Assembly: GCF_014203325.1 (NCBI RefSeq)
Contig: NZ_JACHIV010000001.1
Location: 5,209,501 to 5,273,500 of the forward strand
From: Saccharopolyspora gloriosae
GTDB lineage: Bacteria; Actinomycetota; Actinomycetes; Mycobacteriales; Pseudonocardiaceae
Direction: 5' to 3'
Length of the DNA stretch: 64,000 nucleotides
The notes below the pieces were generated by a model, which searched no databases, was not told the origin of the DNA, and was given only the letters and a program-made list of their open reading frames with translations. Position numbers and translations under genes: made by a program. Each line of letters begins with the position of its first letter. Positions within the stretch are counted from its first letter, which is position 1. This document shows, piece after piece, positions 7,117-61,935 of this stretch.

Positions 7117-7262
7117 TGAGCGACGTTGTCGGTCGGCGTCGTGTCAGCGGCGACGCCGCTGAGCAGCGACCACCGGAGCAGAACGACCACCGGCGGGGTC
7201 TCAGCGGCTTCCTCTCGCGAGGACGGGGAAGCCGCTGAGGTTCCGCCGAGCGACCGCCCGCG
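7117..7262 (-). repeat. Palindromic 3'-end element, copy R1 (shortened, type A tail)
   Basis: Minimal copy of the dispersed element. The palindrome at 7200-7239 has perfect 13-base arms (CTCAGCGGCTTCC) around a 14-nt loop. The loop keeps TCGCGAG and GGAC but has lost the T-rich/A-rich inner stem seen in full copies. Read on the minus strand, it starts 43 nt after the cysteine dioxygenase stop. The tail at 7117-7199 contains the small GGCGACGCC hairpin and GACCACC repeats typical of type A. Confidence 0.8.
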
Positions 7263-7281
7263 CAAGCCGAGCGGAGGTCGG

Positions 7282-7758
7282 TCAGGCTCGGGTGAGGCCG
7301 TCCACGGGATCAAGGGAGTAGAGCGTCATCTGGGTGCGGCCCGGCCGGTACACGTGGATCGTGATCGCGGGGTCGGGGCTGTCGTTGACCACCTGGTGCA
7401 CGTGGTCGGGGCCGAAGACGCGGGACTGGCCGGTCTCCAGGGCGTGCCATTCCTCGACCGGCCCGGTCGGGGTGTCGCGCACGACCCGCTCGGTGACGGT
7501 GCCGGAGACCACGGTGAAGGCACCGGTCGCGCCGCCGTGGTCGTGCAGTTCGGTCCGCTGCCCGGGGAGCCAGCTCAGCAGCCAGGCTTCGTGGGTGGCG
7601 GTGCGTTCGAGCAGGCCGGCCCAGCGCTGCTGCGGGTCGTAGCGCAGGCGGTGCGCCCAGGAGAGCCGGTCGGCGGCGAGCTCGCGGGCGATCCGCACGG
7701 GATGCGCGAGCGACCGGTCCGCGTCGGCGGCGACGGTGTTGGGGGGTACGGCGAACAC
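7282..7758 (-). CDS. Cysteine dioxygenase type I (cupin)
   Basis: Probable non-heme iron dioxygenase that converts cysteine to cysteine sulfinate. The 158-residue protein has the cupin metal motif ELHDHGGATGAFTVVSG at residues 77-94 and the second metal histidine in FGPDHVHQVVN. The GTG start at 7758 follows GAGGACG and begins VFAVPPNTVAAD, as in bacterial homologues; the frame continues upstream to 7959 without homology. It sits between the MocR regulator and the Cys/Met-metabolism lyase on the same strand, which suggests a small cysteine-catabolism group. Some cupins of this type prefer other thiols such as 3-mercaptopropionate, so substrate is not certain. Confidence 0.87.
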   Translation of the reverse strand: MFAVPPNTVAADADRSLAHPVRIARELAADRLSWAHRLRYDPQQRWAGLLERTATHEAWLLSWLPGQRTELHDHGGATGAFTVVSGTVTERVVRDTPTGPVEEWHALETGQSRVFGPDHVHQVVNDSPDPAITIHVYRPGRTQMTLYSLDPVDGLTRA

Positions 7759-8308
7759 GGGGCGTCCTCGATGATCGTGAGTGCGGGAAGTGGGAGTGGC
7801 TGCGGTGATGAGCCCGGCGACGCACGTCCCGGCGACGCGATCTCCCCGGAGGGGCGCTGCGCGGAACGGGGCTGGTGCGGAGATCCCGGTTCGGCCACCG
7901 CCCGTGTTCGGGGCGGTTCCGGTTTCGCGGATCGGGTGGATCGCGGCGCGAGGCCGCACGGGTCGTTCAGGTCGGTTCGGGGAGCACGTCGCCCGGTCCG
8001 CCCTGTTCGCCGATCCTGGGGATCACCGACCGTCAGCGGGGTCGATCACCGCTGCAGACAAAGCGCGCTCGCCACCCGGCGCAGGTCGATGTGACCTCGT
8101 CCATCGGTCATGGCTCGCAACACGCGGCGTAGTGAACCAGCGCCGGAAGCGACCCGTCAAGCCGATTGCGCCGATGTCACACCGTCGTGAACCCGCACTC
8201 AACGTGATCACAGCGCGGTGCGCAGCAAGATCATCCACTGGCTCGCCGCCGCCGGAGTGATGATCATCATCCTGTTTGCCGGTCCCGTGCGCGATGGGCT
8301 CGCGGGGT
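7759..8308. other. 550-bp intergenic region without a supported gene
   Basis: Several open frames cross this region but none has convincing protein character. A plus-strand frame from GTG 8218 encodes a hydrophobic stretch but then runs antisense into the lyase gene, so it was not called. The promoter of the cysteine dioxygenase gene should lie near 7760-7850. Confidence 0.5.
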
Positions 8309-9403
8309 TCAGGGCAGGGCCGCGAGCACGTCCGCCACGAGGTCGGCGGGGTCTTCGCACCCGGCCGAGAACCGCACGAAGCCCGGTGCCACCGGGTCGC
8401 CCCACTGCGCCCGCCGGTCCACGGTGCTGTGCAGGCCGCCGAAGCTGGTGGCCGCCACGACGAGCGCGCTGCGGCGCACGAACTCCGCCACCGCGTCGGC
8501 GTCGGCGAGTTCGAAGCGGAACACGCCGCCCCAGCGCCGCATCTGGGCGCTCGCGAGCCGGTGCGCCGGGTCGTCGGGCAGTCCGGGCCAGCGCAGCCCG
8601 GTGACCGCGGGGTGCCCGCGCAGGGCGTCGACCAGCGCCGCCGCGTTCGTGGCCTGCCGGGCCAGCCGCAGGTCGAGGGTGCCGAGGCTGCGGTGCGCCA
8701 GCCAGGTCTCGAACGGACCGGGGATGGCGCCGGAGAGCGTGCGCGCCCGGCGCAGCCGCTGCGCCAGTTCGCCGTCGGCCGTGGACACGTGCCCGAGCAG
8801 CACGTCGCTGTGCCCGGTCAGCGCCTTGGTGTCGCTGGCGAGCGCGATGTCCGCGCCGAGTTCGAGGGGGCGCTGCCCGATCGGGGTGGCGGTGGTGTTG
8901 TCCACGGCCAGCAGCGCACCGGCCCGGTGCGCGCGGCGGGCCAGTTCGGCGATGTCGCAGACGTCGAGGCCCGGGTTGGACGGGGTTTCGAGCAGGACCA
9001 GCCGGACCCCGTCGAAGACGTCCTCGGGCCACGGCCCCGTCGTGGGGATCTCCCGCACGTCCAGCGAGAGTTCGGCGAGCTCTTCGCGCACGAACTGCCG
9101 GGTGGCGTAGTAGCCGTCGGAGGGCACCAGCAGCCGGTCGCCGTGGTGCAGCACGGCGCGCAGCACGGCGCTGATCGCGGCCATGCCGGAAGGCAGCAGC
9201 ACGCACTCCCCGCCGTCGAGCTCACCGATGGCCGCTTCCAGCGCCCGCCACGACGGATTCCCGGCCCTGCCGTAGAAGTCCCCCTGCGGATCCCCGAGGT
9301 GGTACGGAGCGGCGAACACGGGCCCCGGCGCCAGCGGATCGCCCGGCCGCGGATCGCCGTGCCCACCGTGCACGCACTTCGTCCCGTCCCCGAGCTCCGC
9401 CAC
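8309..9403 (-). CDS. Cys/Met metabolism PLP-dependent lyase (cystathionine gamma-lyase/synthase family)
   Basis: A fold-type I PLP enzyme of 364 residues in the cystathionine gamma-synthase/gamma-lyase family. It shows YGRAGNPSWRALE (phosphate/substrate region), LLPSGMAAISAVL, ETPSNPGLDVCDI, LLAVDNTTATP and the PLP lysine in ALASDTKALTGHSD. The GTG at 9403 follows a GGGGAGG site and starts VAELGDGTKCVHGG. Which reaction it performs (gamma-lyase, gamma-synthase, or O-acetylhomoserine sulfhydrylase) cannot be settled by eye. Being next to cysteine dioxygenase and a PLP-binding regulator favours a role in degrading or interconverting sulfur amino acids. Confidence 0.85.
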   Translation of the reverse strand: MAELGDGTKCVHGGHGDPRPGDPLAPGPVFAAPYHLGDPQGDFYGRAGNPSWRALEAAIGELDGGECVLLPSGMAAISAVLRAVLHHGDRLLVPSDGYYATRQFVREELAELSLDVREIPTTGPWPEDVFDGVRLVLLETPSNPGLDVCDIAELARRAHRAGALLAVDNTTATPIGQRPLELGADIALASDTKALTGHSDVLLGHVSTADGELAQRLRRARTLSGAIPGPFETWLAHRSLGTLDLRLARQATNAAALVDALRGHPAVTGLRWPGLPDDPAHRLASAQMRRWGGVFRFELADADAVAEFVRRSALVVAATSFGGLHSTVDRRAQWGDPVAPGFVRFSAGCEDPADLVADVLAALP

Positions 9404-9535
9404 CTGCAACCTCCCCACTAGAACGCCCCTCACCAAATTATTGCGCCCGCAACCCAACCCCTCCAGCAAATGCGCCCCACTCCACAAGAGACCCCTCCAC
9501 CCACACGCGCCACCCCCGAAGCCCACCCTTCACAG
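9404..9535. other. A/C-rich promoter region upstream of the lyase
   Basis: The plus strand is strikingly rich in A and C and poor in G and T (for example CAACCCAACCCCTCCAGC). The minus strand should carry the promoter of the lyase gene. A similar strand bias is seen between the tRNA genes at 21111-21420. Confidence 0.4.
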
Positions 9536-9806
9536 CAGACAACCGCGCAGCGGGCGGCGAAGCCGTGCCTCGGGCGGCGAAGCAAGCCTGCCTCACGGCG
9601 AAGCCGTGCCTGGCGGCCGTAGGCCGTGCCTGTATGCGCGTCAGCGCATAGCCCACGTCAAAAAGGTGACAACCCGCGGATTCTCAGCTGCTTCCTCGCG
9701 AGGACAGCTTTTTCCCTCGTGGCGGAGCCACTTGGGAAAAAGATCCCGCAGCGAGGAAGACACTGAGGTTCCGCCACCCGACCACCAAAGCAAAACGAGC
9801 CGACGA
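9536..9806 (-). repeat. Palindromic 3'-end element, copy R2 (type B tail)
   Basis: Full copy read on the minus strand, palindrome 9683-9777, starting 34 nt after the gpsA stop. The inner stem CTTTTTCCC/GGGAAAAAG and the GTGGC-TCC-GCCAC tip are intact, but the outer variable arms have drifted and now pair imperfectly. The tail (9536-9682) has a TATGCG/CGCATA hairpin in place of the usual TATTCGC/GCGAATA, followed by repeated GGCCTACGGCC and GGCTTCGCC mini-hairpins. Confidence 0.85.
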
Positions 9807-9810
9807 AGCC

Positions 9811-10827
9811 CTACTCGGACTTGCGTTCGCGGCCGAGTAGTTGGGCTGCTCCTGGTACTGGGCCGAGGTCTTCGTGGCACACCCGGTGCACCACTTCGGT
9901 GATCGGCATTTCCACGCCGTGGTGCGCGGCGAGCTCCCGGATGGACGAGCAGGACTTGACGCCTTCGGCGACTTGGCCGTTGGTGGCGTCCTGCGCTTGC
10001 GCCAGCGTTTCGCCGCGTCCGAGCCGTTCCCCGAAGGTCCGGTTCCGCGACAGCGGTGAGGTGCAGGTGGCGACGAGGTCGCCGAGTCCGGCGAGCCCGG
10101 CGAAGGTCATCGGTTCGGCGCCGAGCGCGGCTCCGAGCCGGGTGGTCTCCGCGAGCCCGCGGGTGATCAGCGAGGACATCGTGTTCTGCCCGTAGCCGAG
10201 CCCGGCGGCCATGCCGCAGGCCAGCGCCATCACGTTCTTGCAGGCCCCGGCGAGTTCGATGCCCACGAGGTCGGTGTTGGTGTAGGGCCGGAAGTAGCCG
10301 GTGGAGCACGCCGCTTGCAGCGCGACGGCGCGATCGTGGTCGGTGCAGGCCACGACGGTCGCAGTGGGTTGTTCGCCGGCGATCTCCATGGCGAGGTTGG
10401 GACCGGAGACGACGGCGACCTGGTCCATGGGCACGTCGGCGACTTCGGCGACGACTTCGCTCATCCGCTTGAGGGTGCTGAGTTCGACGCCTTTGGCGAG
10501 GCTGACGAGCGTGGCGTCCGGCGGCAGCAGCGGCTGCCAGCCCGCGAGGTTCTCCCGCAGGGTTTGGCTGGGCACGGCGAGCACCACGGCTTCGGCGCCG
10601 TGCATGGCTTCGACGGCGTCGTCGGTGGCTCGCAGCGACTCGGGCAGCGCCACTCCGGGCACGTACCCGGGGTTCTGGTGCTCGGTGTTGATGCGTTCGG
10701 CGACTTCGGCGCGGCGCGCCCACAGGGTGACGTCGCTGCCCGCGTCGGCGAGGACTTTCGCGAAGGTGGTGCCCCAGGACCCGGCTCCGAGCACGGTGAC
10801 CTTGCGGGCGGGTTCAGCTCCGGTCAT
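9811..10827 (-). CDS. gpsA: NAD(P)-dependent glycerol-3-phosphate dehydrogenase
   Basis: Reduces dihydroxyacetone phosphate to sn-glycerol 3-phosphate for membrane lipid synthesis. The 338-residue enzyme has the Rossmann motif [17 protein letters not shown] at residues 11-27, [30 protein letters not shown], and the catalytic-lysine region [20 protein letters not shown]. The ATG at 10827 lies inside the end of the acyltransferase gene (overlap of 14 nt), so the two are translationally coupled and act in sequence: GpsA makes the substrate for acylation. Repeat element R2 follows its stop codon. Confidence 0.96.
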
Positions 10828-11605
10828 CGTCGCTCCGGGTCTGCTGGTCCCGGCGGCGGGCCGCCGAGTAGAACTCCTCGGGCGGTTGTTGTTCGCGGAT
10901 GTCGCCCAGCAGTTCCCGCACCCGGCTCATCGCGAGTTCGCTGACGGTGCGCAGCACGGGGGCGTCGGCAGGCGCGTCGCGGTATTCGGAGAGGTCGAGC
11001 GGTTCGCCGATCCGCACGTGCACCGTTTTGCGCGGGAACGGGCGGAACTTCTTCTCGTAGTGGTCGTAGACGTCGCGGGTGCCCCAGCGGGCGGCGGGCA
11101 CGATCGGCACGTCGTGCTCCACGGCGAGCCTGGCCACGCCGGGCTTCGGCGACATCGGCCAGCCTTCGGGGTCCTTGGTGACCGTTCCGTCCGGGTAGAT
11201 GATGACGATCTTGCCGGCTTCGAGCGCGTCGTGCGCCGCTTCGAGGCTCTTGCGGGCGTCGGCGGTCTGCCGGAACACGGGGATCTGCTCGACGCCGTTG
11301 AGGACGTTTCTCAGCACCGGCACGTTCCACAGCGTGTTCTTGGCCATGAACCGGGGGACGCGGGCGGCGCGGTGCACGGTGACCGCGTCGTAGAGCGGGT
11401 CGAGGTGCGACACGTGGTTGAGCACGAGCAGCGCCGGGCCGGTGGCGGGGATGTTCTCCAGCCCGTGCACGCGGACGCGGGACAGCAGTGCGGTCAGCGG
11501 GTAGAACACGACCGCCGCCAGCCGCAGCCAGAACCGCCCCATCAGCGTCGGGGGCCGTTCCTTGGTCCGCTTGCGCGACCGCTTGAGGCTCGCCGGTTCC
11601 GCCAC
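10814..11605 (-). CDS. plsC: 1-acyl-sn-glycerol-3-phosphate acyltransferase (PlsC family)
   Basis: Probable lysophosphatidate acyltransferase at the inner face of the membrane. The 263-residue protein has a hydrophobic segment at residues 25-45 ([17 protein letters not shown]), the catalytic HX4D motif [11 protein letters not shown] near 62, FMAKNTLW, and a variant of the EGTRS block, YPDGTVTKD. The GTG at 11605 follows AGAGGAGA; the frame extends upstream to 11689. It overlaps gpsA, forming a two-gene glycerolipid unit. Basic residues at the N-terminus ([10 protein letters not shown]) suggest membrane-surface contact. The exact acyl acceptor is inferred from family. Confidence 0.9.
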
Positions 11606-11739
11606 GCCTGTCTCCTCTCGCCCTAGAGCGGCTGTCAAGTTACCTGGCCCACGCTCCTGGTCGGCGAGCGGTCGGTCCGCGGCGGGCATACTCGATGATC
11701 GACGGTGGGCGAAGGATCGGGGATGCGAGGGAGGGCGGG

Positions 11740-12375
11740 ATGAACGGCGGAGTGTCCTTGCTGGTGCCGATCAAGCCGCTGCACTTGGCGAAGTCCCGGT
11801 TGCGCGACGATCGGCCCGCCGCGCGGCACGCGGATCTGGTGAGCGCGATCGCGCTCGACACGGTGGAGGCCGCGCGGCGCGCCGCCGGGGTGCGGGCGGT
11901 GCTGGTGGTGACCTCCGATCCGAGGCTGGCGGAGTCGTTCGCCGCGGTCGGCGTCGAGGTCGTCGCCGACGACCCGGCGGCGGGGTTGAATCCGGCGTTG
12001 GAGCACGGCGAGCGGGTGCTGCGGTCGCGCGGGGAGGCGCGGATCGGCGCGCTGCAGGCGGATCTTCCGGCGTTGCGGTCTGCGGAGCTGGCGGCGGCGT
12101 TGGAGCAGGCCGGGCCGGAGCGCGCGTTCAGCGCGGATCACCAGGGCACGGGTACGACGCTGCTGCTGGCCGCCGCGCACGGTGCGCTCGCGCCCCGGTT
12201 CGGGCCGGGTTCGGCGGCCGCGCACGTGTCGTCCGGGGCGCGGGCGCTCGACGGCGAGTGGGCGTCGTTGCGCTGCGATGTGGACACCGCGGCGGATCTG
12301 CGGCGGGCGACGGGCCTCGGTCTCGGGGAGCGCACCGCGGCGTGGCTGGCGGGTGCCGCCGGAAACCCGCGCTGA
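11740..12375 (+). CDS. fbiD: FbiD/CofC nucleotidyltransferase of coenzyme F420 synthesis
   Basis: Transfers GMP to phosphoenolpyruvate (FbiD, mycobacteria) or 2-phospholactate (CofC, archaea) to make the activated precursor of F420. The 211-residue protein starts [21 protein letters not shown], the usual guanylyltransferase N-terminus with its conserved K-x-AKSRL, and later has [37 protein letters not shown] and FGPGSAAAH. The ATG at 11740 has a GAGGGCGGG site before it; an in-frame ATG at 11695 is less likely. Position next to ppk1 matches Rv2983. Its presence shows that the organism makes F420. Confidence 0.93.
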
Positions 12376-12430
12376 CCTGTGTGGTGTTCCCCGCGACAAA
12401 GGTCGAGCGACGGCCCCGGAATGGGTGAGA

Positions 12431-15211
12431 ATGGTCGTCGTGAGTACCGACAGCAGCGATCACGAGACCACCAAGCCCGTGCCACGCCGGACCTCGTCGA
12501 CCGCCGGGGCCGCCGGTGCTCGTCAGAACTCGCCGAAATCCGGTCGCGGGAGCCGGACGACCAGGCAGGACGCGGCGTCGTCGTCGGAGGAGTCCGGTAC
12601 GTCGCGGACCACGGCGCGGCGCGGCGCGGCTAAGACCGGCGCGGCGAAATCCGGCACCGCGAAGTCCACGGCGGCGAAGCCGACGGCGGCGAAGCCGACG
12701 GCGGCGAAGACCACCGCTGCGAAGTCCACTGCGGCGAAGAGCACCGCTGCCAAGTCCACGGCAGCCAAGACCACCGCAGCCGAATCCACGGCAGCCAAGA
12801 CCGCGGCAGCCGAATCCACAACGGCCAAGCCGGCAGCGGCCGAATCCGGAGCGGCGAAGCCCACCACGACGAGGTCCGCCGCGGCGAAGTCCACGACGGC
12901 GAAGTCCACCGCGCGCAAGACCGCCACGGCGAAGTCCGCGCCGAACGCCGCGCAGCCGAGGACGTCTCGGACGCGCACCTCGAAGGCCGCCACCACCGCG
13001 GCAACGGCGAGCGCTCGGCGCAAGACCGCCGCCGCGGCTCCCGCGGAGACCGCTCCCCCGGCCCCGCCCGCGACGCCGAAACCGCCGGTGAACGGCGAAG
13101 GCGCCCGCGTGCCCGCCGCGCCGCCCGCGGTGACCCGCGCCGCGGCCAGCACGGACCTGCCCGACGACCGGTACCTCAACCGCGAGCTGTCCTGGCTGGA
13201 CTTCAACGCCCGCGTGCTCGCCGTCGCCGAAGACCCCTCGCAGCCGGTGCTGGAACGCGCCAAGTTCCTGGCGATCTTCGCCTCCAACCTGGACGAGTTC
13301 TACATGGTCCGCGTCGCGGGCCTGAAGCGCCGCGAGGAGACCGGGCTCTCGGTGCGCAGCGCCGACGGGCTCACCCCGCACGAGCAGCTCGCCCGCATCG
13401 CCGCGCGCAACCAGGACCTCACCGAGAAGCTCGGCCGCACGTTCCTCGACGAGCTGGTGCCGGAGCTGGAGGCCAACGGCATCCGGATCATGCGCTGGCA
13501 GCAGCTCGGCGAGCCCGAGCAGCAGGTGCTGGGCCGCTACTTCGACGACCACATCTTCCCGGTGCTGACCCCGCTGGCCGTCGACCCGGCGCACCCGTTC
13601 CCGTACATCTCGGGGCTGTCGCTGAACCTCGCGGTCACCGTCAGCGACCCCGAAGAAGGCCTGCGCCGCTTCGCCCGCGTCAAGGTGCCGGACAACGTGC
13701 CCCGGCTGATCCGCGTGGAGCCCGACCGCGAGAACGAGCAGGCGACGTTCCTGCCGCTGGAAGAGCTCATCGCCGCGCACCTGGACAAGTTGTTCCCCGG
13801 CATGGACATCAGCGACCACCACATCTTCCGGGTCACCCGCAACGCGGACCTGGAAGTGGAGGAGGACCGCGACGAGGACCTGCTGCAGGCCATGGAGCGG
13901 GAACTGGCGCGCCGCCGGTTCGGCCCGCCGGTGCGCCTCGAAGTCACCGACACGATGAGCGAGACGATGCTGGAGCTCCTGCTGCGGGAGCTCGAAGTCG
14001 ACGCGCACGACGTGGTCGAAGTGCCGGGCCTGCTGGACCTGTCCTGCCTGTTCCAGCTGGACAAGCTGCAACGCCCGGACCTGAAGAACCCGCCGTTCGT
14101 GCCCGCCACGCACCCGGCGTTCGCGGAAGGCCAGACGCCGAAGAGCATCTTCGCGACGCTGCGCGAGGGCGACGTGCTGGTGCACCACCCCTACGACGCG
14201 TTCTCCACCTCGGTGCAGCGGTTCATCGAGCAGGCCGCGGCCGATCCGCACGTGCTGGCGATCAAGCAGACGCTGTACCGCACCTCCGGCGACTCGCCGA
14301 TCGTGAACGCGCTGATCGACGCCGCCGAAGCGGGCAAGCAGGTGGTGGCGCTGGTCGAGCTGAAGGCGAGGTTCGACGAGCAGGCCAACATCCAGTGGGC
14401 GCGCACGCTGGAACGCTCCGGCGTGCACGTGGTCTACGGCCTCGTGGGGTTGAAGACGCACTGCAAGACGGCGCTCGTGGTGCGCCAGGAAGGCTCCACG
14501 ATCCGCCGCTACTGCCACCTGGGCACCGGCAACTACAACCCGAAGACGGCCCGCACCTACGAAGACCTGGGGCTGCTGACGGCCGCGCCCGAAGTCGGCG
14601 CGGACCTCACCGACCTGTTCAACGTGCTCACCGGCTACGCCCGGCACGGCACGTACCGGCGGATCCTGGTGTCCCCGCACGGCATCCGGCTCGGCATCGT
14701 GGAACGCATCGAGGCGGAAGCGGAACGCGCTCGCTCCGGGCTGCCGTGCGGGATCCGGATGAAGGTCAACTCGCTGGTCGACGAGCAGATCATCGACGCG
14801 CTGTACCGGGCTTCGCTGGCGGGCGTGCCGATCCGGATCGTGGTGCGCGGCATCTGCGCGCTGCAGGCCGGGGTGGACGGCCTCAGCGAGAACATCGAGG
14901 TGCGCTCCATCCTGGGGCGTTTCCTGGAGCACTCCCGGGTGTTCCACTTCGTCGGCATCGACGAGCGCTGGATCGGCAGCGCCGACATGATGCACCGCAA
15001 CCTGGACCGCCGGATCGAGGCGCAGGTGCGGGTGGTCGACCCGAAGCTGACCGAACAGCTGGACGCGATGCTGGATTCGGCGCTGCACCCGTCCACGCGG
15101 TGCTGGGTGCTCAACGCCAAGGGCGATTGGGAGGCCTCCCCGCGCAGCGGCGAGCAGGTCCGCGACCACCAGGCGGAAATGCTGCGCCAGCACGGGGCGA
15201 AGGTGCAATGA
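12431..15211 (+). CDS. ppk1: Polyphosphate kinase 1 with histone H1-like N-terminal extension
   Basis: Makes inorganic polyphosphate from ATP reversibly. The catalytic part begins near residue 238 ([20 protein letters not shown]) and continues with [20 protein letters not shown], the phospho-histidine segment [29 protein letters not shown] and [20 protein letters not shown]. Residues 1-235 are unusual: about 25 repeats of the type AAKxT/AAKS, resembling the tail of HupB encoded 4 kb away. Typical PPK1 is about 690-740 residues; this product is about 926. ATG 12431 or GTG 12440 could be the start. The stop overlaps the mutT1 start in an ATGA junction. Confidence 0.95.
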
Positions 15212-16239: not shown

Positions 16240-16242
16240 TTT

Positions 16243-16600
16243 GCTTTGGTGTCCGGGTAGCGGAACCTCAGTCGGTCTCTCGCTGCGGGATCTTTTTCCC
16301 AAGTGGCTCCGCCACGAGGGAAAAAGCTGTCCTCGCGAGAGACCGACTGAGAACCCGCCGGTGGTCGGCTTTTCGACGTGGGCTATTCGCTGCGCGAATA
16401 CAGGCACGGCCTTCGGCCGCAATGCAGGCTTGCTTCGCCGCCCACTGCACGGCTTCGCCGCTGGGCACGGCCTTCGGCCGCAATGCAGGCGTGGCTTCGC
16501 CCGCCCACTGCACGGCTTCGCCGCAAAGGCACGGTCTTCGGCCGCCAGGCAGGCTTGCTTCGCCGCCCAGCTGCGCGGCTGGGGCTGGGGGTGGCTCGCC
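16243..16600 (+). repeat. Palindromic 3'-end element, copy R3 (type B tail)
   Basis: Full copy following mutT1 by a few nt. Palindrome at 16267-16351: outer arms TCGGTCTCTC and GAGAGACCGA pair perfectly between invariant CTCAG and CTGAG, then the T5C3/G3A5 inner stem and GTGGC-TCC-GCCAC tip. The 5' flank (TTTGGTGTCCGGGTAGCGGAAC) is shared by most copies. The tail (16352-16600) is the longest of all: a TATTCGC/GCGAATA hairpin, then alternating GGCCTTCGGCC and GGCTTCGCC mini-hairpins. Confidence 0.9.
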
Positions 16601-16626
16601 GTGGGGTGGTTTTGGGGTGGAACGGC

Positions 16627-16673
16627 GATGATCCCGGCCCGATCGCTGTTGCGATCGCACCGGGATCATCGGT
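16627..16673. terminator. Long stem-loop between mutT1 and hupB
   Basis: Outer arms GATGATCCCGG and CCGGGATCATC enclose an inner GATCGC/GCGATC stem. There is no U-tract on either side. It sits in the convergent mutT1/hupB gap and may end both transcripts, as stem-only terminators are common in actinobacteria. Confidence 0.55.
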
Positions 16674-16841
16674 GAGAACCGGCGGAGCACCTTGGATGGG
16701 GCACGGCCGCGGTGCCCGTGGCACGGGTACCGGGGCCGCCCGCCGCTCCGCCGCCGCGCGTGGCGCGGGTGACGCTGCGCCGTGTGCGGGGACGCCACCC
16801 GCGAACGCCTGCGAAGCTCGGCTCGCTCAGGCGGCGAGCGC

Positions 16842-17678: not shown

Positions 17679-17735
17679 TTCAGTCCCTCCCAGGACAACA
17701 ACGGCCCCGTCGGGCCGACTCAAAACCCACGGTAA

Positions 17736-20749: not shown

Positions 20750-20937
20750 CCGGTTGCTCTGGTGTCCGGGTGGCGGAACCTCAGCGTTCTTCTCGCTGCC
20801 GGATCTTTTTCCCGAGTGGCTCCGCCACGAGGGAAAAAGCCGTCCTCGCGAGAAGAACGCTGAGAACCCGCGGCGGTGCCGGTGGACATGGTGGTCACCG
20901 CTCAGCGGCTCCGCCGCTGACAAGACACGGACAGACC
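20750..20937 (+). repeat. Palindromic 3'-end element, copy R4 (type A tail)
   Basis: Palindrome at 20780-20864, starting 45 nt after the regulator stop. Outer arms CGTTCTTCTC/GAGAAGAACG pair perfectly. The inner T5C3/G3A5 stem and GTGGC-TCC-GCCAC tip are intact, and CTGCCGGATC replaces CTGCGGGATC. The tail carries CTCAGCGGCTCCGCCGCTGA, a self-complementary type A hairpin. Confidence 0.88.
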
Positions 20938-25709: not shown

Positions 25710-26000
25710 TTGCTCTGGTGGGCGGGTAGCGGAACCTCAGTCGCCTTCTCGCTGCGGGATCTTTTTCCCGAGTGGCTCCGCCACGAGGGAAAAAGCCGTC
25801 CTCGCGAGAAGACGACTGAGAACCGGCCGGTGGTCGGCATTGGGACGTGGGCTATTCGCTTCGCGAATACAGGCACGGCCTTCGGCCGCAACGCAAGCCG
25901 GCTTCGCCGCCCAAGGCACGGCCCTTCGGCCGCCAGGCACGGCTTCGCCGCAGGGCAGGCGTGGCTTCGCCCGCCCACTGGACGGCCTTCGGCCGTGGCG
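25710..26000 (+). repeat. Palindromic 3'-end element, copy R5 (type B tail)
   Basis: Palindrome at 25736-25820, starting 38 nt after the monooxygenase stop. Outer arms TCGCCTTCTC/GAGAAGACGA have one C-A mismatch; the inner stem and tip are intact. The tail has a TATTCGC/GCGAATA hairpin and four or five GGCCTTCGGCC/GGCTTCGCC mini-hairpins running up to the end of the FAH gene. Confidence 0.88.
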
Positions 26001-28717: not shown

Positions 28718-28839
28718 GGTGTTGAAGGCCACGACCGCATGCTGCCACAACCCGGCCGGCCGCCACCACCTGGGCGGACCGCCCCCGATCCGGACGACTC
28801 CGGCCGCGCGCCCAGGCGAACGAGCGGATCTCCGTTGGT

Positions 28840-28885
28840 CGTCCTGCCGGCGGCGAAGCCGCTGAGGTTCCACCACGCGGGCACC
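28840..28885 (-). repeat. Degenerate remnant of the palindromic element
   Basis: On the minus strand GTGGTGGAACCTCAGCGGC keeps the conserved 5' flank (GGTGGCGGAACCTCAG) and is followed by a short GCGGCTTCGCCGC hairpin in place of the full palindrome. It lies 100 nt after the leuB stop, beyond leuB's terminator. Confidence 0.55.
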
Positions 28886-34321: not shown

Positions 34322-34615
34322 CTGCTTTGGTGTCCGGGTAGCGGAACCTCAGCGTCCTTCTCGCTGCGGGATCTTTTTCCCAAGTGGCTCCGCCACGAGG
34401 AAAAAAGCTGTCCTCGCGAGAAGAACGCTGAGAACCCGCCGGTGAGCGGCTTTTCGACGTGGGCTATTCGCTTCGCGAATACAGGCACGGCCTACGGCCG
34501 CAAGGCAGGCTGGCTTCGCCGCCCACTGCACGGCTACGCCGCGGGGCAAGCGTGGCTTTGCCCGCCCACTGCACGGCTTCGCCGCCCAACTGCACGGCTT
34601 CGCCGTGGCGCGAGT
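34322..34615 (+). repeat. Palindromic 3'-end element, copy R6 (type B tail)
   Basis: Palindrome at 34348-34432, starting 45 nt after the LysR stop. Outer arms CGTCCTTCTC/GAGAAGAACG have one C-A mismatch. The inner stem is also half-changed (TTTTTCCC against GGAAAAAA), so it looks like an intermediate between the T5C3 and T6C2 forms. The tail has TATTCGC/GCGAATA and several GGCTTCGCC/GGCTACGCC mini-hairpins. Confidence 0.88.
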
Positions 34616-44257: not shown

Positions 44258-44566
44258 CCGCGACCTGACGAGGCCGATCCGCGCCGCGTGACCGCAGCGC
44301 GCACCGGGAGCCGGTCCCGCCTAGGGGCGCGCACGGCACACGTCGCAATCCCGCGGGTCCGGCAGCGTCCCGCTCGCGGGGAAAGCGACGCCGCTCGTGG
44401 CGCGGCCGCGCACGACATCGGTCCTGCGGCGAGCACGACGCCGAAGCAGAGCGACCGGCGCGGACCAGCGTGGCGCACCGGACGAAACGACCCGGCTCAT
44501 GGTCCACTCAGGACGCATCGCCGATCCGGAGCGCGGCGACGCGCCGGTGGCCGGGACGGGGAAGCG
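44258..44566. other. Intergenic region upstream of the antiporter
   Basis: About 309 bp, no supported gene. The antiporter's frame is open upstream through this region but shows no membrane-protein or homologous character before ATG 44567. Confidence 0.4.
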
Positions 44567-51985: not shown

Positions 51986-52005
51986 GGGCTCCCCCGGTCC
52001 GCTTG

Positions 52006-52180
52006 CTGTGGTGGCCGGGTGGCGGGTTCTCAGGTGTCTTCTCGCTGCGGAATCTTTTTCCCGAGTGGCTCCGCCACGAGGGAAAAGCTGTCCTCGCGAG
52101 AAGACACCTGAGAACCCGCTGTTGGTCCGGCTGCGTGCGTGGTCGCTGCTCGTCGGCTTCGCCGCCGACAAGACGATGAT
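52006..52180 (+). repeat. Palindromic 3'-end element, copy R7 (type A tail)
   Basis: Palindrome at 52029-52112, starting 44 nt after the ACT protein stop. Outer arms GTGTCTTCTC/GAGAAGACAC pair perfectly. Unlike the other copies the 5' flank is GGCGGGTTCTCAG rather than GGCGGAACCTCAG, so both outer ends match and the palindrome is extended (GGGTTCTCAGG/CCTGAGAACCC). The tail has a GTCGGCTTCGCCGCCGAC hairpin. Confidence 0.88.
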
Positions 52181-52215
52181 CGAACCGTTCCACACGGATT
52201 CCCGAGCTGCGGACT

Positions 52216-52420
52216 GCCCAGGTGAGCGACGTTCGTCGTCGTTGTCCTGTCAGCGGCGAAGCCGCTGAGCAGTGACCACCAGAGCAAAAAGACCACCCGC
52301 GGGTTCTCAGCGGTTTCCTCGCGAGGACGGCTTTTTTCCTCGTGGCGGAGCCACTTGGAAAAAAGATCCCGCAGCGAGGAAACCGCTGAGGTTCCGCCAC
52401 CCGACCAGCTACGCAGGCCG
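52216..52420 (-). repeat. Palindromic 3'-end element, copy R8 (type A tail)
   Basis: Palindrome at 52306-52390, reading on the minus strand from 48 nt after the ligA stop. Outer arms CGGTTTCCTC/GAGGAAACCG pair perfectly and the inner stem is the T6C2/G2A6 form. The palindrome differs from copy R9 by one base. Its tail (52216-52305) includes CAGCGGCGAAGCCGCTGAG. R7 and R8 lie tail to tail between convergent genes. Confidence 0.88.
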
Positions 52421-52437
52421 AAGACCGGGCAACAGGC

Positions 52438-54702
<2,265 letters not shown>

Positions 54703-54879
54703 CTAACCAGGGCCCCCGACGGCTCGCGCGGATCACCACGCCCTCGGGAGCGGGCAGCACCACCTGATACAGCACGGTCCGGCCCGTATCCGGTGCTCAT
54801 CCGGCGGACGGTGCCCACCGTGCGCGGTCGGCGCCCGAGGACGAGCCGCCGTGGTCGCCGGGGCGGGTGGAACCGGAGA

Positions 54880-55752: not shown

Positions 55753-55834
55753 GCCCTCATTGTGCCGGTCCCGCCCCGGCCGCCGGGGTCGTTCGGCGAT
55801 ATCCGCGATCAGCCGCCCGGCGCGGACGCGGTCC

Positions 55835-56902
55835 TCACGCGAGCGCCGCGGTGACCAGGTCTGTGAGGTCGCTGCGTTCGACACGCAGGCGCCCGGCCTC
55901 GGCCAGCGCGCCCAGCAGTCCGGTCATCGGATCCCGGTTCGTGGCCTGGCGCAGCACTTCCAGCGCCCGCACCCTGGCGCGGTCCGCGCTGGTCACCGGG
56001 CGACGGTGCAGCTCCCACCGCCGCAGGCGCACCACTTCGCCGATGGCCGCGTCGTCGGGTTCGACGCCGTCCTCCAGCGCGCGCAACGTCTCGGCCACGA
56101 CCAGCTGGTCGTGGCCCGCGGTGAGGTCGAGCACGTGGCGCGCCACGCTCGCCGCCGCGCGCCTGCACCGCGCTGGGCCCGCCCGGCGCACCGAGTCGAG
56201 CAGCACCGCGGAGTCCGCTTCCAGATCGTCGGCGTGGAACCGGATGCCGACCTGGTCCAGCCCCACCTCGTCGAGCAGCACCTCCGGCGAGGACGGCAGG
56301 TCCAGCGGCCAGGACGCGACGGGGTAGGTGGCGAAATCGCCGTCGAACCAGTCCGGCGTCAGCGGCTCACCGGTGATCCGCGCGGCCAGCGCCAGCATCA
56401 GGTCGATGGTGCTCGCCCCCGGCTCCCCCGCCGGGTCGAGGCCCGGCCAGGGCAGCCCGGCGCGGATGTCCTCCAGCCCGTCCGGGCGGGTGCCCTGCCG
56501 GAATGCGGGCATCAGCGCCTCGAACGCGGTGCGCAGCTCCCCGTCGACGGCGTGCGAGAACTGGGTGAGGGCGTTGACGTTCCAGAAGGCGGAGACGGCC
56601 TCGGTGCGGTGGCTGACCCGGCGCAGCACTTCCGCCCTGCTGCCCTGGAATCCGCCGTCCTCGGCGATGAGCGTCCACTCGCCGACGCTGCGCAGGCCGA
56701 TCACCGGGTACCGGTCCTGGTGCGCGAACGCCTCCTCGCAGTACTCGTCGAAGTCGAGGGTGCGCGCGTGCTCGGTGATCGCGCCGAAGCGCTGCGCGAG
56801 CCGATCGAGGTCGGTGCCGCGCACGAAGGTCAGGCACGCCGCGTCCTGGACGGTGCTGCGGTGCACCCATCCGAACCGCTCGACTTCGCCGGTGTTCGAC
56901 AC
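55835..56902 (-). CDS. DUF6461-like uncharacterised protein
   Basis: A 355-residue soluble protein. The start VSNTGEVERFGWVHRSTVQD followed by AACLTFVRGTDLDRLAQRFG resembles DUF6461, a family of unknown function common in actinobacteria. VIGLRSVGEWTLIAEDGGFQ and VSAFWNVNALTQFSHAVDGE extend the match; the C-terminal half is helical and may hold a second domain. The GTG at 56902 is used; the frame extends to 57049, into the MetE-like gene. No role can be assigned from context. Confidence 0.65.
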   Translation of the reverse strand: MSNTGEVERFGWVHRSTVQDAACLTFVRGTDLDRLAQRFGAITEHARTLDFDEYCEEAFAHQDRYPVIGLRSVGEWTLIAEDGGFQGSRAEVLRRVSHRTEAVSAFWNVNALTQFSHAVDGELRTAFEALMPAFRQGTRPDGLEDIRAGLPWPGLDPAGEPGASTIDLMLALAARITGEPLTPDWFDGDFATYPVASWPLDLPSSPEVLLDEVGLDQVGIRFHADDLEADSAVLLDSVRRAGPARCRRAAASVARHVLDLTAGHDQLVVAETLRALEDGVEPDDAAIGEVVRLRRWELHRRPVTSADRARVRALEVLRQATNRDPMTGLLGALAEAGRLRVERSDLTDLVTAALA

Positions 56903-56990
56903 GTCTGGTTTCTTACCATCGTTGGGGCATTCAGGTGACGTGAACGGGACAAAATGATCATGGAATCCCACGAGGAGTTCCTTGCGGCGA

Positions 56991-58022
56991 CTAGCGTTCC
57001 GCCGCTTCGGCGAACACCTCGGTGATCTCCTTGGCCACCGACAGCGCACGCCGCGCCCACTCCGGTGAGGCCCCCGCCAAGCCGCAGGCCGGGCTCACCG
57101 CGCTGCGCTCCAGCAGCGCCTTCGGCGCGAATCCCAGCCGTGACGCCAATTCCAGACCCGGGCGGGCCAGCTCCCGCACGTCGGGGCGCCCCTCCGGATC
57201 GACTCCGGGCACGAGCCCGAGCACCAGCCGGGTGCCTTCCTCCCACGCCTCGCCGAGTTCGTCGGCCAGCGCGCCGGACACCGAGCCGAGCCGGGTCGCG
57301 TCCAACGCGACCGCCCCCGCCCCGGCGCCGCGCAGCAGCCCCACGGGTGGGCGGTTCGCGCAGCAGTGCACCAGCACCGGCGCGCCCGACGCCGCGGCCA
57401 GCGCCTCGATCACCTCGCCGAGCAGGCTCTGCGCCTCCGGTTCCGGCACCGCCGCCACCCGCCCGTAGCCGGACGGGGTGGGCAGGCTCCCGGCGAGCAC
57501 CGCGGGCAGCGACGGCTCGTCGAGCTGCACCACCACCGGCGCGCCGGTCCGCTGCGCGACCTGCGCGACGTGCGCGCGGAGACCTTCGGTGAGCGACTCC
57601 GCGAAGTCCCGCAGCGCGCCGGGATCGGTGAGCACCCGGTGGCCGCGTTCCAGCTCGATGCCGGCCGCGAGCGTCCACGGCCCCGCCGCCTGCACCTTCA
57701 CCGCGCGCGGCGGGCCCGCCTCGGCGACGGCCTGCTCCACCGCGTCCAGGTCCCAGCGCAGCAGGTCCAGCGCCCGGCGATGGTCCCGGCCCGGCTTGCC
57801 CGCGACGCGGTAGCCGGACGGCACGACCTCCACCGCGAGGTCGACGAGCAGCCCGGCGGTGCGGCCCAGCATGTCGGCGCCGACTCCGCGCGCGGGCAGT
57901 TCGGGCAACGGCATCAGGTCGGGCAGCTCGCCCAGGACGATGCGGGCGGCCTCGACCGGATCCGTTCCCGGCATCGATCCGAGGGCGGTCACGATGCCGG
58001 GGTTCCACGCTGCGTCACTCAC
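56991..58022 (-). CDS. MetE C-terminal-like protein (cobalamin-independent methionine synthase family)
   Basis: A 343-residue protein covering only the catalytic (C-terminal) half of the cobalamin-independent methionine synthase fold. It has VKVQAAGPWTLAAGIELERG, VVVQLDEPSLPAVLAGSLP, VLVHCCANRPPVG (HxCxN zinc-type motif) and SVSGALADELGEAW. Full MetE is about 750 residues and binds methylfolate with both halves, so this probably uses another methyl donor. It corresponds to Rv3015c in position. The GTG at 58022 (VSDAAWNPGIV) is the start. Divergent from the iron-regulated lipoprotein gene. Confidence 0.82.
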   Translation of the reverse strand: MSDAAWNPGIVTALGSMPGTDPVEAARIVLGELPDLMPLPELPARGVGADMLGRTAGLLVDLAVEVVPSGYRVAGKPGRDHRRALDLLRWDLDAVEQAVAEAGPPRAVKVQAAGPWTLAAGIELERGHRVLTDPGALRDFAESLTEGLRAHVAQVAQRTGAPVVVQLDEPSLPAVLAGSLPTPSGYGRVAAVPEPEAQSLLGEVIEALAAASGAPVLVHCCANRPPVGLLRGAGAGAVALDATRLGSVSGALADELGEAWEEGTRLVLGLVPGVDPEGRPDVRELARPGLELASRLGFAPKALLERSAVSPACGLAGASPEWARRALSVAKEITEVFAEAAER

Positions 58023-58074
58023 TCGTCCATTATCGGCTCCGCCGTAGGACGGAGGGACAGGCGGGATGCGCACT

Positions 58075-58093
58075 GTAGGTTAGGCTAACCATG
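58075..58093. promoter_or_regulatory. IdeR/DtxR iron box
   Basis: GTAGGTTAGGCTAACCATG is a 19-bp match to the consensus TTAGGTTAGGCTAACCTAA at 15 positions, with the central GGTTAG-G-CTAACC perfect. It lies 58 bp before the siderophore-binding protein start, where a repressor would block transcription when iron is plentiful. Confidence 0.88.
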
Positions 58094-58150
58094 CTTACCG
58101 CCTTTCGGTGTCACCCGCACGGGCGCACCGGCTCTGCGAAGGAGTACCCC

Positions 58151-59116
58151 ATGCCGCTGTCCCGGACATCCGCGCTCTCCCGTCGCGGACTGCTGCAGGC
58201 CGCGACGGCGCTGGCCGCGCTGGGCGTCGCGGGGTGCGCAGGCGGAGCGGGCGGAGCCCGGCCCGAAGGCCCGACTCGCCGCGTCGAGACCCACCAGGGC
58301 CCGGTGGACATCCCGGCGAACCCGCAGCGGGTCGTGTGCCTCGACCAGTACGCCACGATCGCGCTGCTCGACGTGGGCATCCGCCCGGCCGCGACCGTCG
58401 ACGGCCTCGACGATTGGATGCCCGCGCAGCACCTCGACACCTACCGCGCGCTGCCCCGGGTCGGCGGCTACCAGCCCGAGTTCGAACGGGTGCTCGCCGT
58501 GCGCCCCGACCTGATCATCGGCAACAGCGCGTTCACCCTCAGCGGCGGCAGCACCTACGAGCAGCTCACCGGGATCGCCCCCACCGTCATCCTGACCTCC
58601 CGCGTGTCCGGCGAGTGGCAGGAGATGGCGTTGCGCGCCGCGGACATCGTCAACCGCCCCGAGCCGATGAACCGGCTCCGCGACCGCTACTTGGAGCGCG
58701 CGGCGGAGATCCGCAAGACCTACGCCGCCGCGCTGGAACGCACCCGGTTCAACCTGGTGGCCTCGTTCAAGTCCGGCAGCTGGAACCTGTGCCTGCCGGA
58801 TTCGTGGAGCGGCGTGGTGCTCGCCGAGGCGGGCTGCCGCTTCGGCTCCGCCGCCGAGGGGCGCACCGGCAGCGCCGTGGAGCAGTCCTACGAGCAGCTC
58901 GGCGTGCTCAACGACACCGACGTGCTGTTCTACCAGGTCAACCCGGACGGCCAGGTCGACCAGGCGATGCAGGCGCTGCTCGGGCAGGGCTCGTTCCAGA
59001 ACCTCCCGGCCGTGCGCGAATCCGGCGGAACCCCGTTCAAGAACCTCTACGTCTTCGGCTACGGCCAGGCCCTCGGCGCCCTCGACGAACTAGAAGCGGT
59101 CCTGCGAACCCGCTGA
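58151..59116 (+). CDS. Iron-siderophore ABC transporter substrate-binding lipoprotein
   Basis: A 321-residue periplasmic-type binding protein of the FecB/FepB class. The N-terminus has a twin-arginine-like signal (SRRGLLQAATALAALG) and lipobox GVAGC. It is followed by VDIPANPQRVVCLDQYATIA, VGGYQPEFERVLAVRPDLII and LLGQGSFQNLPAVRESG, typical of the type III fold. The ATG at 58151 follows GAAGGAG; the frame opens 60 nt earlier. The iron box upstream predicts de-repression under iron limitation. Permease and ATPase genes are not adjacent, so it works with a transporter encoded elsewhere. Confidence 0.93.
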   Translation: MPLSRTSALSRRGLLQAATALAALGVAGCAGGAGGARPEGPTRRVETHQGPVDIPANPQRVVCLDQYATIALLDVGIRPAATVDGLDDWMPAQHLDTYRALPRVGGYQPEFERVLAVRPDLIIGNSAFTLSGGSTYEQLTGIAPTVILTSRVSGEWQEMALRAADIVNRPEPMNRLRDRYLERAAEIRKTYAAALERTRFNLVASFKSGSWNLCLPDSWSGVVLAEAGCRFGSAAEGRTGSAVEQSYEQLGVLNDTDVLFYQVNPDGQVDQAMQALLGQGSFQNLPAVRESGGTPFKNLYVFGYGQALGALDELEAVLRTR

Positions 59117-59129
59117 CCGCCTGCCTGTG

Positions 59130-59320
59130 ATCTCACCGTTCCAGGCGAGCGGCGTTGCCGATCATTGTCCTGTCAGCGACCACCAGAGCAGAACGACCAC
59201 CGGCGGGTTCTCAGCGGTTTCCTCGCGAGGACAGCTTTTTTCCTCGTGGCGGAGCCACTTGGAAAAAAGATCCCGCAGCGAGGAAACCGCTGAGGTTCCG
59301 CCACCCGGACACCTACGAAG
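59130..59320 (-). repeat. Palindromic 3'-end element, copy R9 (type A tail)
   Basis: Palindrome at 59210-59294, minus strand, starting 49 nt after the mnmA stop. Perfect outer arms CGGTTTCCTC/GAGGAAACCG and T6C2/G2A6 inner stem, one base different from copy R8. The tail continues to about 59130 with GACCACCAGAGCAGAACGAC but lacks the full GGCGAAGCC hairpin seen in R8. Confidence 0.88.
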
Positions 59321-59342
59321 GCCACGAACAAAGACAGGAAAA

Positions 59343-60431
59343 TCAGCGGGTAGCGGAGATCAGGCCGCTGCCCAGGACGAGGTCGCCCTCCGGTTCCGGG
59401 CGGTACAGGACGATGGCCTGGCCCGGTGCGACGCCGCTCAGCGGCTCGCTGAGCCGCACCCGCAGGCCGCCGTCGGCGACCTCCGCGACCGCACCGGCGG
59501 TGCCGCCGTGCGCCCGCACCTGCACGACGCACTCGGTGGAACCGTCCAATTCCCGTTCCGAAGGCCAGATCGGCCGCTTCGCATCGATCCCCGTGACCCC
59601 GAGCCGATCGGCGGAACCGACCTTCACGGTGCCCGACACGGGCTCCAGCGACAGCACGTAGCGCGGCTTGCCGTCCGGCGCGGGCGCCTCGATGCCGAGG
59701 CCCTTGCGCTGCCCGACGGTGAAGCCGTGCACACCCGTGTGCTCACCCAGCACGGCGCCCGTCTCGGCGTCCACGAGCTGCCCGGGGCTCTGCCCGAGCT
59801 TGGACTCCAGGAAGGAGCGGGTGTCGCCGTCGGGGATGAAGCAGATGTCGTGGCTGTCCGGCTTGTTGGCCACTGCCAGATCGCGCCGTTCCGCTTCGGC
59901 GCGCACCTCCGACTTGAGCGAGCCGCCCAGCGGGAACATCGAGTGCCGCAGCTGCTCGGCCGTCAGCGAAGCCAGCACGTACGACTGGTCCTTGCCCTCG
60001 TCGCGGCTGCGGCGCAGCTCCGGAACGCCGTCCTCGACGACGAGCCGCGCGTAGTGCCCCGTGCAGACGGCGTCGAAGCCGAGCGCCATCGCCTTCTCCA
60101 GCAACGCCTCGAACTTGATCTTCTCGTTGCAGGTGAGGCAGGGATTCGGGGTGCGCCCGGCCGCGTACTCGCCGACGAAGGTCTCGATGACCTCCTCGGT
60201 GAACCGCTCCGCGAAATCCCACACGTAGAACGGGATTCCGAGGATGTCGGCGGCGCGGCGCGCGTCGCGGGAATCCTCGACGGTGCAGCAGCCGCGGGCA
60301 CCGGTGCGCAACGTGCCGGGTTTCGCCGACAGCGCCAGGTGCACGCCGGTCACGTCGTGGCCGGCCTCCACCGCGCGGGCGGCGGCGACCGCGGAGTCCA
60401 CGCCGCCGCTCATCGCAGCCAGTACTCGCAC
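59343..60431 (-). CDS. mnmA: tRNA-specific 2-thiouridylase
   Basis: Adds the 2-thio group to wobble uridine 34 of tRNA Lys, Glu and Gln. The 362-residue enzyme has the PP-loop [13 protein letters not shown] near residue 6, [19 protein letters not shown] with the first catalytic cysteine, [11 protein letters not shown], and the second cysteine in [12 protein letters not shown]. The GTG at 60431 is 4 nt past the upstream cysteine desulfurase stop, so the sulfur donor and the thiolase are made together. MnmA commonly receives sulfur from IscS. Confidence 0.96.
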
Positions 60432-60435
60432 TGCC

Positions 60436-61668
60436 TCACACCTCCGTCGTGGCGGTCGACGCCGCCGCCGCTCGCCGCAACCCGGTCAGCCCGGCGTTGC
60501 GCGCTCGTTCCACCACCGGCCCGATGACCTCGGTCAGCGCCCGCACATCGGCGCCGGTGGAGTCGTGTCCCAAGGAGAATCGCAGGGAGCCGCGCGCCGC
60601 CCGCGGCTCGGCCCCCATCGCCAGCAGCACGTGGCTCGGTTCGGCGACCCCGGCGGTGCAGGCCGAACCCGTGGAGCACTCGATGCCCTGCGCGTCGAGC
60701 AGCATCAGCAGGCTGTCGCCCTCGCAGCCGGGGAAGGTGAAGTGCGCGTTGCCGGGCAGCCGCGCCGGTGAATCGCCGGTGACCTCCAGCGTCGGATCGC
60801 CGTTGAGGATCACGTCGGGCACCGCCGCGCGCACCCCGTCGATGAGCTCGTCGCGCAGCGCCGCCAGCTCCGGCACGTGCCCGGCGCGGCGCCGGACCGC
60901 TTCGCGGGTCGCGCTCGCCAGCCCCAGCACACCGGGCACGTCGAGGGTGCCGGAGCGCACTTCGCGCTCCTGGCCACCGCCGTGCAGCACCGGGGTGCAC
61001 TCCACGTCGCGCGCCAGCAGCAGCACACCCGCACCGTAGGGGCCGCCGACCTTGTGCCCCGTCATCGTCAGCGCGGCCGCACCGGACGCGGCGAAGTCCA
61101 CCGGCACCGTCTCCACGGCCTGCACCGCATCGGTGTGCAGCGGCACCCCGTAGCGGTCGGCGACGGCGGCGAGCTCCGGGATCGGGTTGACCGTGCCGAC
61201 CTCGTTGTTCGCCCACATCACGGTGGCCAGCGCCACGTCGTCCGGGTTCGCGCGCAGCGCGTCCTCCAGCACCTCCGGGCGGACCCGGCCGTGCTCGTCG
61301 ACGGGCAGCCAGGTCACGTCGGCGCCTTCGTGGGCGGCGAGCCATTCCACGGTGTCGAGCACCGCGTGGTGCTCGACCGCCGAAGCCAGCACCCGCCTGC
61401 GCGCGGGCTCCTTGCCGCGGCGCGCCCAGAAGATGCCCTTGACCGCGAGGTTGTCGCTCTCGGTGCCGCCACCGGTGAACAGCACCTCGGAAGGCCGGGC
61501 GCCGAGCGCGGTGGCGATGCTCTCGCGGGATTCCTCGACGGCGCGGCGCGCGCGGCGGCCCGAGGTGTGCAGGGACGAGGCGTTGCCCAGCCGGGCCAAC
61601 GCCTCGCTCATCGCCGCGACCGCTTCCGCCCGCATAGGCGTCGTGGCGGCATGGTCGAGATAAGTCAT
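60436..61668 (-). CDS. iscS: Cysteine desulfurase (IscS/NifS family)
   Basis: Releases sulfur from cysteine as a persulfide for tRNA thiolation and Fe-S clusters. The 410-residue PLP enzyme starts [20 protein letters not shown] and has [24 protein letters not shown], the PLP lysine in [15 protein letters not shown] and the active cysteine in [17 protein letters not shown]. The ATG at 61668 matches the family start; the frame extends upstream without homology. It is directly upstream of mnmA. Repeat R10 lies before its start, in the promoter region. Confidence 0.96.
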
Positions 61669-61708
61669 CGCCGTTCCAGGGTAATGCAGGGGGCCGGTGC
61701 TGGATGAG

Positions 61709-61935
61709 CTGCGTTGGTGGTCGGGTGGCGGAACCTCAGTCGGTCTGTCGCTGCGGGATCTTTTTCCCGAGTGGCTCCGCCACGAGGGAAAAAGCTGTCC
61801 TCGCGACAGACCGACTGAGAACCCGCGGGTGGTCGACTTTTGAACGTGGGCTATTCGCTTCGCGAATCCAGGCACGGCTACGCCGCAAGGCACGGCCTTC
61901 GGCCGCCAGGCATGGGTTCGCCGCGAGGCACGCTT
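61709..61935 (+). repeat. Palindromic 3'-end element, copy R10 (type B tail, exceptional orientation)
   Basis: Palindrome at 61735-61819 with perfect outer arms TCGGTCTGTC/GACAGACCGA. Compared with R3, one C-G pair is replaced by G-C. It is the only copy not placed after a gene of matching strand: it reads on the plus strand, starting 67 nt from the cysteine desulfurase start codon, which lies on the minus strand. The tail has the TATTCGC/GCGAAT hairpin and GGCTACGCC/GGCCTTCGGCC units. Confidence 0.87.

Follow-up and report, generated by a model that had tools for sequence, protein, structure and literature searches.

Why does one long hairpin recur behind gene after gene in a single stretch of chromosome, and how do its arms stay paired while their sequence changes? 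The question is raised by bases 5209501-5273500 of the single 6,825,909-bp contig of Saccharopolyspora gloriosae, a 64,000-bp segment with 71% G+C that we call the window. Its repeated hairpins are real and occur above chance. They belong to an element that is, judging from its sequence, probably transposon-derived, non-coding and probably moved by a transposase of the IS5 family; the best explanation, and one we hold to be rather likely, is a miniature inverted-repeat transposable element (MITE) of an IS5-family insertion sequence (IS) whose hairpins are overwritten by DNA copying. The unit would run from a terminal inverted repeat (TIR) through a leader, a large imperfect hairpin with conserved internal loops and a small tail hairpin to a second TIR, spanning 227-230 bp in the genome designated G397. 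The hairpin feet, CTCAG and CTGAG, would themselves be targets of the same transposase, which would lead ISs and other copies to nest there. Copies would be inherited in place, the hairpin between leader and tail would be overwritten from other copies, and template switching or gene conversion, as DNA copying processes, would homogenise the arms, producing covariation without selection on RNA pairing.

A covariance-model search combined with inspection of the flanks gave nine full imperfect hairpins of about 102 bp, a 57-bp remnant and one remnant lacking the hairpin. The original prediction, made from the letters of the window, was thus right that a repeat exists, while its count of ten copies and one remnant gives way to nine full copies and two remnants. 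The features are as follows.

7191..7248, minus strand: remnant with the outer arms joined and the core deleted, 57 bp, 40.6 bits
9674..9775, minus strand: hairpin R2, arms TGTCTTC/CTGCTTC drifted, tail type A
16259..16360, plus strand: hairpin R3, arms TCGGTCT perfect, tail type A
20772..20873, plus strand: hairpin R4, arms CGTTCTT perfect, tail type B
25728..25829, plus strand: hairpin R5, arms TCGCCTT/TCGTCTT with a single C-A mismatch, tail type A
28825..28873 (ends approximate), minus strand: remnant without hairpin, the 5' foot fused to the tail hairpin
34340..34441, plus strand: hairpin R6, arms CGTCCTT/CGTTCTT with a single C-A mismatch, tail type A
52021..52121, plus strand: hairpin R7, arms GTGTCTT perfect, tail type B, outer AAC loop changed to GTT, giving a perfect outer stem
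52297..52398, minus strand: hairpin R8, 3' of a DNA ligase-like gene, arms CGGTTTC perfect, tail type B
59119..59339, minus strand: whole element of R9, 221 bp, the most complete in the window, both decayed TIRs kept
59201..59302, minus strand: hairpin R9, arms CGGTTTC perfect, model score 123.5 bits
61727..61828, plus strand: hairpin R10, arms TCGGTCT perfect, tail type A

A further weak model match at 44363-44443 (36.3 bits) was taken for chance. The arm states first described for these copies, six perfect, two with a single C-A mismatch (25728 and 34340) and one drifted (9674), were found again. From the outside inwards, the hairpin consists of GCGG/CCGC, an AAC/AAC loop, CTCAG/CTGAG, the variable 7-nt arm, CTCGC/GCGAG, a conserved asymmetric loop region with TGCGGGATC opposite GCTGTCCTC, the inner stem and the tip, and its consensus fold is very stable (-61 kcal/mol). 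The R9 element occupies the whole gap between two convergent stop codons, and its TIRs, TCCTGTCTTTGTTC at 59339-59326 (minus strand) and GCCTGCCTGTGATC at 59119-59132 (plus strand), each agree with GCCTGTCTTTGAWC at 12 of 14 bases.

The family extends well beyond the window. The core pattern, allowing at most two mismatches, occurred 288 times in the genome (158 and 130 on the two strands) vs 13 (5 and 8) in the reversed control, and the covariance model gave at least 150 matches in the 6.8-Mb genome, to which the later family-wide search added further places. Our main counts come from a revised finder applied to 1.484 Mb of the genome, made up of the window, an adjacent 220 kb and 60 tiles, almost all of them selected for listed copies; it returned 175 copies, including all nine of the window, whereas the reversed control gave none with an identical cut-off. 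An earlier list of 141 rows had skipped weaker matches, containing one copy twice and only three of the nine window copies. The arm-type linkage, the 29-pair ortholog comparison, the tail and leader consensus, the GTRG motif and the altered tip reported below rest on that list or the same type of search, as do the G397 hairpin rows, the gene-end and TIR counts of other genera, the flanks of two-TIR copies and the twelve shared upstream stretches. For comparison, this less complete list gave sense orientation in 109/133 intergenic copies, a median gap of 38, perfect arms in 119/138, 21 A-C vs 11 G-U mismatches, and identical orthologous arms in 1/28.

Evidence for a mobile origin came from the flanks, where some leaders start and some tails finish with an inverted repeat. 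In G397, the repeat GCCTGTCTTTGAAC had 254 matches vs 2 in the reversed control, and 56 loci picked by this repeat or by the model yielded 33 hairpin rows (L268 and L320 being one locus). Both TIRs were present in 25 of these 33 rows, 22 of the 25 measuring 227-230 bp; CTNAG preceded the TIR in 20 of the 25, and in roughly half of the rows the same five bases flanked the unit at either end. At L324, one copy is nested in the 5' foot of another, with CTCAG flanking it on both sides. The same genome carries an IS of about 960 bp with the TIR AGTGCCTGTCTTTGATC. Its transposase of 277 aa matches Pfam DUF4096 and DDE_Tnp_1 and the NCBIfam IS5 family (NF033580). The IS is present as eight identical copies, another at 99% and a further one split in two; its TIR differs from that of the hairpin element at one base of 14. 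Among 20 IS copies in G397, G017 and G018, 19 lay in CTNAG, 18 had identical 5-bp duplications and 12 sat in a foot of this hairpin (14 by a looser script rule, L355 and L360 being doubtful).

Traces of the same ends are present in the window's genome, where one 246-bp copy (L334) has perfect 14-bp TIRs. Both TIRs were recognised at 10/14 or better in 12 of 174 copies, R9 included, vs none in the control, although two of the twelve, at 968448 and 5300171, may reflect chance likeness to a type-A tail. At 11/14, type-B copies retained TIR traces in 10/101 leaders and 15/101 tails, with none in the controls, and traces at -37 to -39 occurred in the window's genome and in G017 and G402, more weakly in genus g26. 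A transposon-derived repeat, the origin that the original prediction had placed against its own account, is what the TIRs, the 5-bp duplications and the IS5-family IS point to, the TIRs remaining in a minority of the genome's copies. The MITE explanation is well supported in G397; for most copies of the window's genome, we infer that such an IS once moved them.

The covariation of the arms, also claimed at the outset, proved strong: perfect 7-nt arms were present in 139 of 172 parsed genome copies, vs 12.2 on average and at most 24 when the 3' arms were re-dealt in 1000 shuffles. Across four genomes of the genus, 190 of 242 copies had perfect arms (139/172, 38/55, 7/9 and 6/6), falling into 31 perfect types. 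Arm type was associated with the tip, the inner stem, the leader and the tail (z 3.9-6.6; 117 copies), and whole elements are therefore copied. To follow single loci, we used 67 copies of related genomes, 43 of which were matched in the sampled part of the genome; 3 were unusable and 10 lacked the element, leaving 30 orthologous pairs with a mean coding identity of 94.6%, one of which, L040, may be paralogous (its upstream gene is repeated). Tail type was the same in 24 of the 30 (15.4 expected, p=0.0002), and arms were identical in only one (0.9 expected), with a mean difference of 3.37 bases vs 3.61 after shuffling (p=0.20). Among the 29 pairs, leaders agreed in 19 (14.2 expected, p=0.024) and inner stems in 14 (13.5 expected). 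Since tails are inherited and arms are no more alike than random ones, the hairpin is largely overwritten in place.

Three further kinds of change bear the signs of DNA-level copying: outer loops turned into perfect pairing in 5/242 copies, cores inverted relative to their flanks in 3/242 (two checked by eye), and one tip altered from the usual GAG to TCG. Homogenisation of arms and inversion of spacers by template switching have been described in the parts of two reports that we consulted (PMC8604942, PMC8794818). Of the two causes offered by the original prediction, a process that rewrites both arms jointly is therefore the one supported, by orthologous loci that retain tails and not arms and by the multi-base loop corrections and core inversions; template switching or gene conversion would be the process at work. 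Correction is not immediate, since one uncorrected C-A mismatch is common to 18 of the 33 rows in G397.

The other cause, selection on sense RNA acting through a transcription terminator or an mRNA 3'-end stabiliser with a protein-binding internal loop, appears unlikely as the reason for the pairing. A sense RNA under selection should accept G-U sooner than A-C. Among 41 distinct single-mismatch stems, A-C occurred 19 times, G-U 11 times and other mismatches 11 times (A-C vs G-U p=0.20, small numbers); without an excess of G-U, sense-RNA selection on the arms, as suggested early on, is not supported. The random likeness of orthologous arms speaks against it as well, as does the tail: the T-run of an intrinsic terminator directly after the stem was absent from the type-B consensus behind the foot, and type A has a short CTTTT 11-15 nt further on. 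In its favour are the stability of the consensus fold, the sense orientation and tight spacing described next, and, across genera, changes on both sides at 16 of 31 predicted pairs, with near-invariant loops.

The position behind genes was assessed with a home-made gene caller; among 29 odd contexts inspected, R6 certainly reflected a missed gene and several others had long sense frames. Three of the 175 copies lay at tile edges, nine overlapped a called gene and 163 were intergenic. Of the latter, 133 stood in sense orientation behind a gene (77 in convergent and 56 in codirectional gaps), 23 were antisense in codirectional gaps and 7 lay in divergent gaps, so that the orientation first noticed in the window holds genome-wide. 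The foot followed the stop codon by 20-50 nt in 100 of the 133 sense copies (median 38). In the window, an open sense frame of at least 100 aa precedes all nine copies and ends 20-46 nt before the foot, the original prediction having given 28-49 nt for nine of its ten copies; two candidate frames exist at each of 16260 and 25729, and at 61728 the caller favoured a frame on the opposite strand. In other genera, where 60 copies were inspected, sense gene ends lay 20-60 nt before the foot in 39 instances, and antisense ends were scattered, with at most 9 per 21-nt window.

A CTNAG target would favour gene ends, since CTNAG spans the stop codon in 125 of 1043 genes (12%) vs 0.11% of all positions in the genome. 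The stops ahead of copies, however, show no excess: 10 of the 100 sense copies at 20-50 nt, and one of nine in the window (R7, whose preceding stop codon lies inside CTNAG), vs 125/1043 genes. Decay of old duplications could hide CTNAG at these stops, but on present evidence target choice fails to account for where the copies of this genome lie; this result lowered our confidence in the MITE explanation and raised two of the alternatives weighed below. Nor does the target account for orientation, because the IS lies about equally in CTCAG and CTGAG, and both orientations occur in G397. Frames of at least 120 aa ending exactly 2 nt before the TIR, with the stop in the duplicated CTNAG, numbered three sense and three antisense in G397, some in nested copies, too few for a rate. 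Selective retention of sense copies after insertion is the other candidate for position and orientation.

Several observations thus weigh against a MITE. Besides the lack of CTNAG excess, the location about 38 nt behind stop codons and the sense bias (133/163) are left without explanation, and the conservation of loops across genera exceeds what a MITE needs. Tips agreed at 12 of 29 orthologous loci, slightly above chance (8.0 expected, p=0.025), and overwriting is therefore not total. Type-A TIR traces at 11/14 are scarce (1/67 leaders, no tails), a search for a terminal repeat of type A gave none, and no TIR at 11/14 was seen in 21 copies of further genera. A close transposase (E<=1e-40) was not found in G000-G005, the related IS of G381 differs in its TIR and was not seen in hairpin feet, and in the window's genome the two-TIR copies showed no flanking target duplication.

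Two alternatives gained from the lack of CTNAG excess. One, possible and yet hardly to be preferred, is a mobile 3'-untranslated-region (3'-UTR) element whose hairpin, its loops conserved across genera, would be useful at mRNA 3' ends in one orientation: hosts would keep sense copies, template switching and exchange between copies would rewrite the arms faster than the flanking genes diverge, and the feet would serve as landing pads for the element's own transposase. The other, which we regard as rather doubtful, takes the hairpin as a 3'-UTR element of greater age and unknown origin, captured in some lineages by IS5-type ISs drawn to its CTNAG feet and not a MITE in most genera. Capture would fit the scarcity or absence of TIR remnants among type-A copies and those of further genera, the single layout that leader, hairpin and tail hold without TIRs, the near-invariant loop bases and the lack of CTNAG excess at stops. 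It fits poorly with the TIR traces at -37 to -39 in three genomes and, more weakly, in g26, with the twelve two-TIR copies of the window's own genome (none in the control), and with a patchy presence that includes single copies in some genomes. Mobilisation of repetitive extragenic palindromes (REPs) by a Y1-type REP-associated tyrosine transposase (RAYT) is very improbable: GTRG does stand immediately ahead of the 5' foot and extragenic palindromes are numerous, but G397 has TIR-bounded units of more than 200 bp with 5-bp duplications, and G000-G003, where copies are very numerous, gave no Y1_Tnp match. Integron attC-like sites, considered for their position behind genes, were dropped, several flanking genes being dispersed core genes.

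Compared with known systems, the element resembles MITEs of IS5-family ISs in having a TIR nearly that of an IS, a short target duplication, no need for coding capacity, many dispersed copies and nesting; it differs in carrying a large hairpin whose internal loops are near-invariant and whose arms covary, in its sense position behind genes and in the use of its own feet as target sites. The terminator-like SPRITE MITEs of Streptococcus pneumoniae (PMC10969869) likewise are clustered intergenic hairpin repeats with mutual insertion, but differ in sequence and host. REPs and bacterial interspersed mosaic elements with RAYT share the many extragenic palindromes, unlike the present element with its TIRs and 5-bp duplications and, in G000-G003, no Y1 transposase. 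Template-switched stems (PMC8794818, PMC8604942), as far as the consulted parts go, share multi-base arm homogenisation and spacer inversion, yet represent a mechanism and not a family, and were inferred in rRNA genes and yeast coding genes, whereas here a dispersed repeat is concerned. No earlier description of the element was found in the literature searched, which included parts of PMC3733652, PMC3610266 and PMC10969869 and left most subscription journals and ISfinder outside its scope, in keeping with the initial impression that no described family matches. The window had no Rfam match beyond three tRNAs, and at R3 only low-scoring chance matches far from the gathering score.

Covarying stems are usually taken as proof of functional RNA. 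A large family that shows covariation, with arm turnover saturated between orthologous sites and without a wobble signature, allows the covariation that arises from DNA copying alone to be measured, and the sense position behind stops offers a direct test of the opposite view, a selected mobile 3' end.

As for its spread, a first covariance model (model R1) matched in 14 of 60 relatives, and a second (model R2, 31 copies from several genera) in 85 of 390 genomes of the family and 15 of 46 genera, the search in related genomes that had been proposed from the start; some genomes carry the hairpin only once. The GGGATC/GCTGTCC region was nearly invariant across genera. In Streptomyces, a 23-base tip identical to that of the element is shared by 13 loci in seven strains (L036, L044, L050-L052, L064, L065, L068, L072, L078, L080, L081 and L086), inside other palindromes with a common core and several different outer inverted repeats; these loci score 20-38 bits, 20.2 of them from the tip alone, and their kinship with the element is unproven.

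In G000, the copies at 366057, 4244641, 5059374, 5567230, 5841594 and 5932475 and six others are preceded by a common, long and near-identical stretch (GTGCGTGGAAGGTCGG...), suggestive of a multi-copy gene carrying the element along. Among the copies listed for G000, the plus strand carries 47 of the 52 that lie at 1.5-3.0 Mb and the minus strand 7 of the 8 at 3.0-3.5 Mb, as would be expected if copies track the direction of genes and of replication. In G002 the element is present at the R3 locus (tiles L148-L151) but split: its leader is interrupted at GGTAG by an integrase-like insertion sequence of about 1.1 kb. GGTAG is repeated on both sides, and a second transposase-like frame, judged by eye, lies just past the insertion. 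Finally, arrays of small hairpins of the form GGCACGGCxxCGCCG follow many type-A tails, for example at 61830-61960 of the window, and a long array of this type also lies in the R7/R8 interval of G001.

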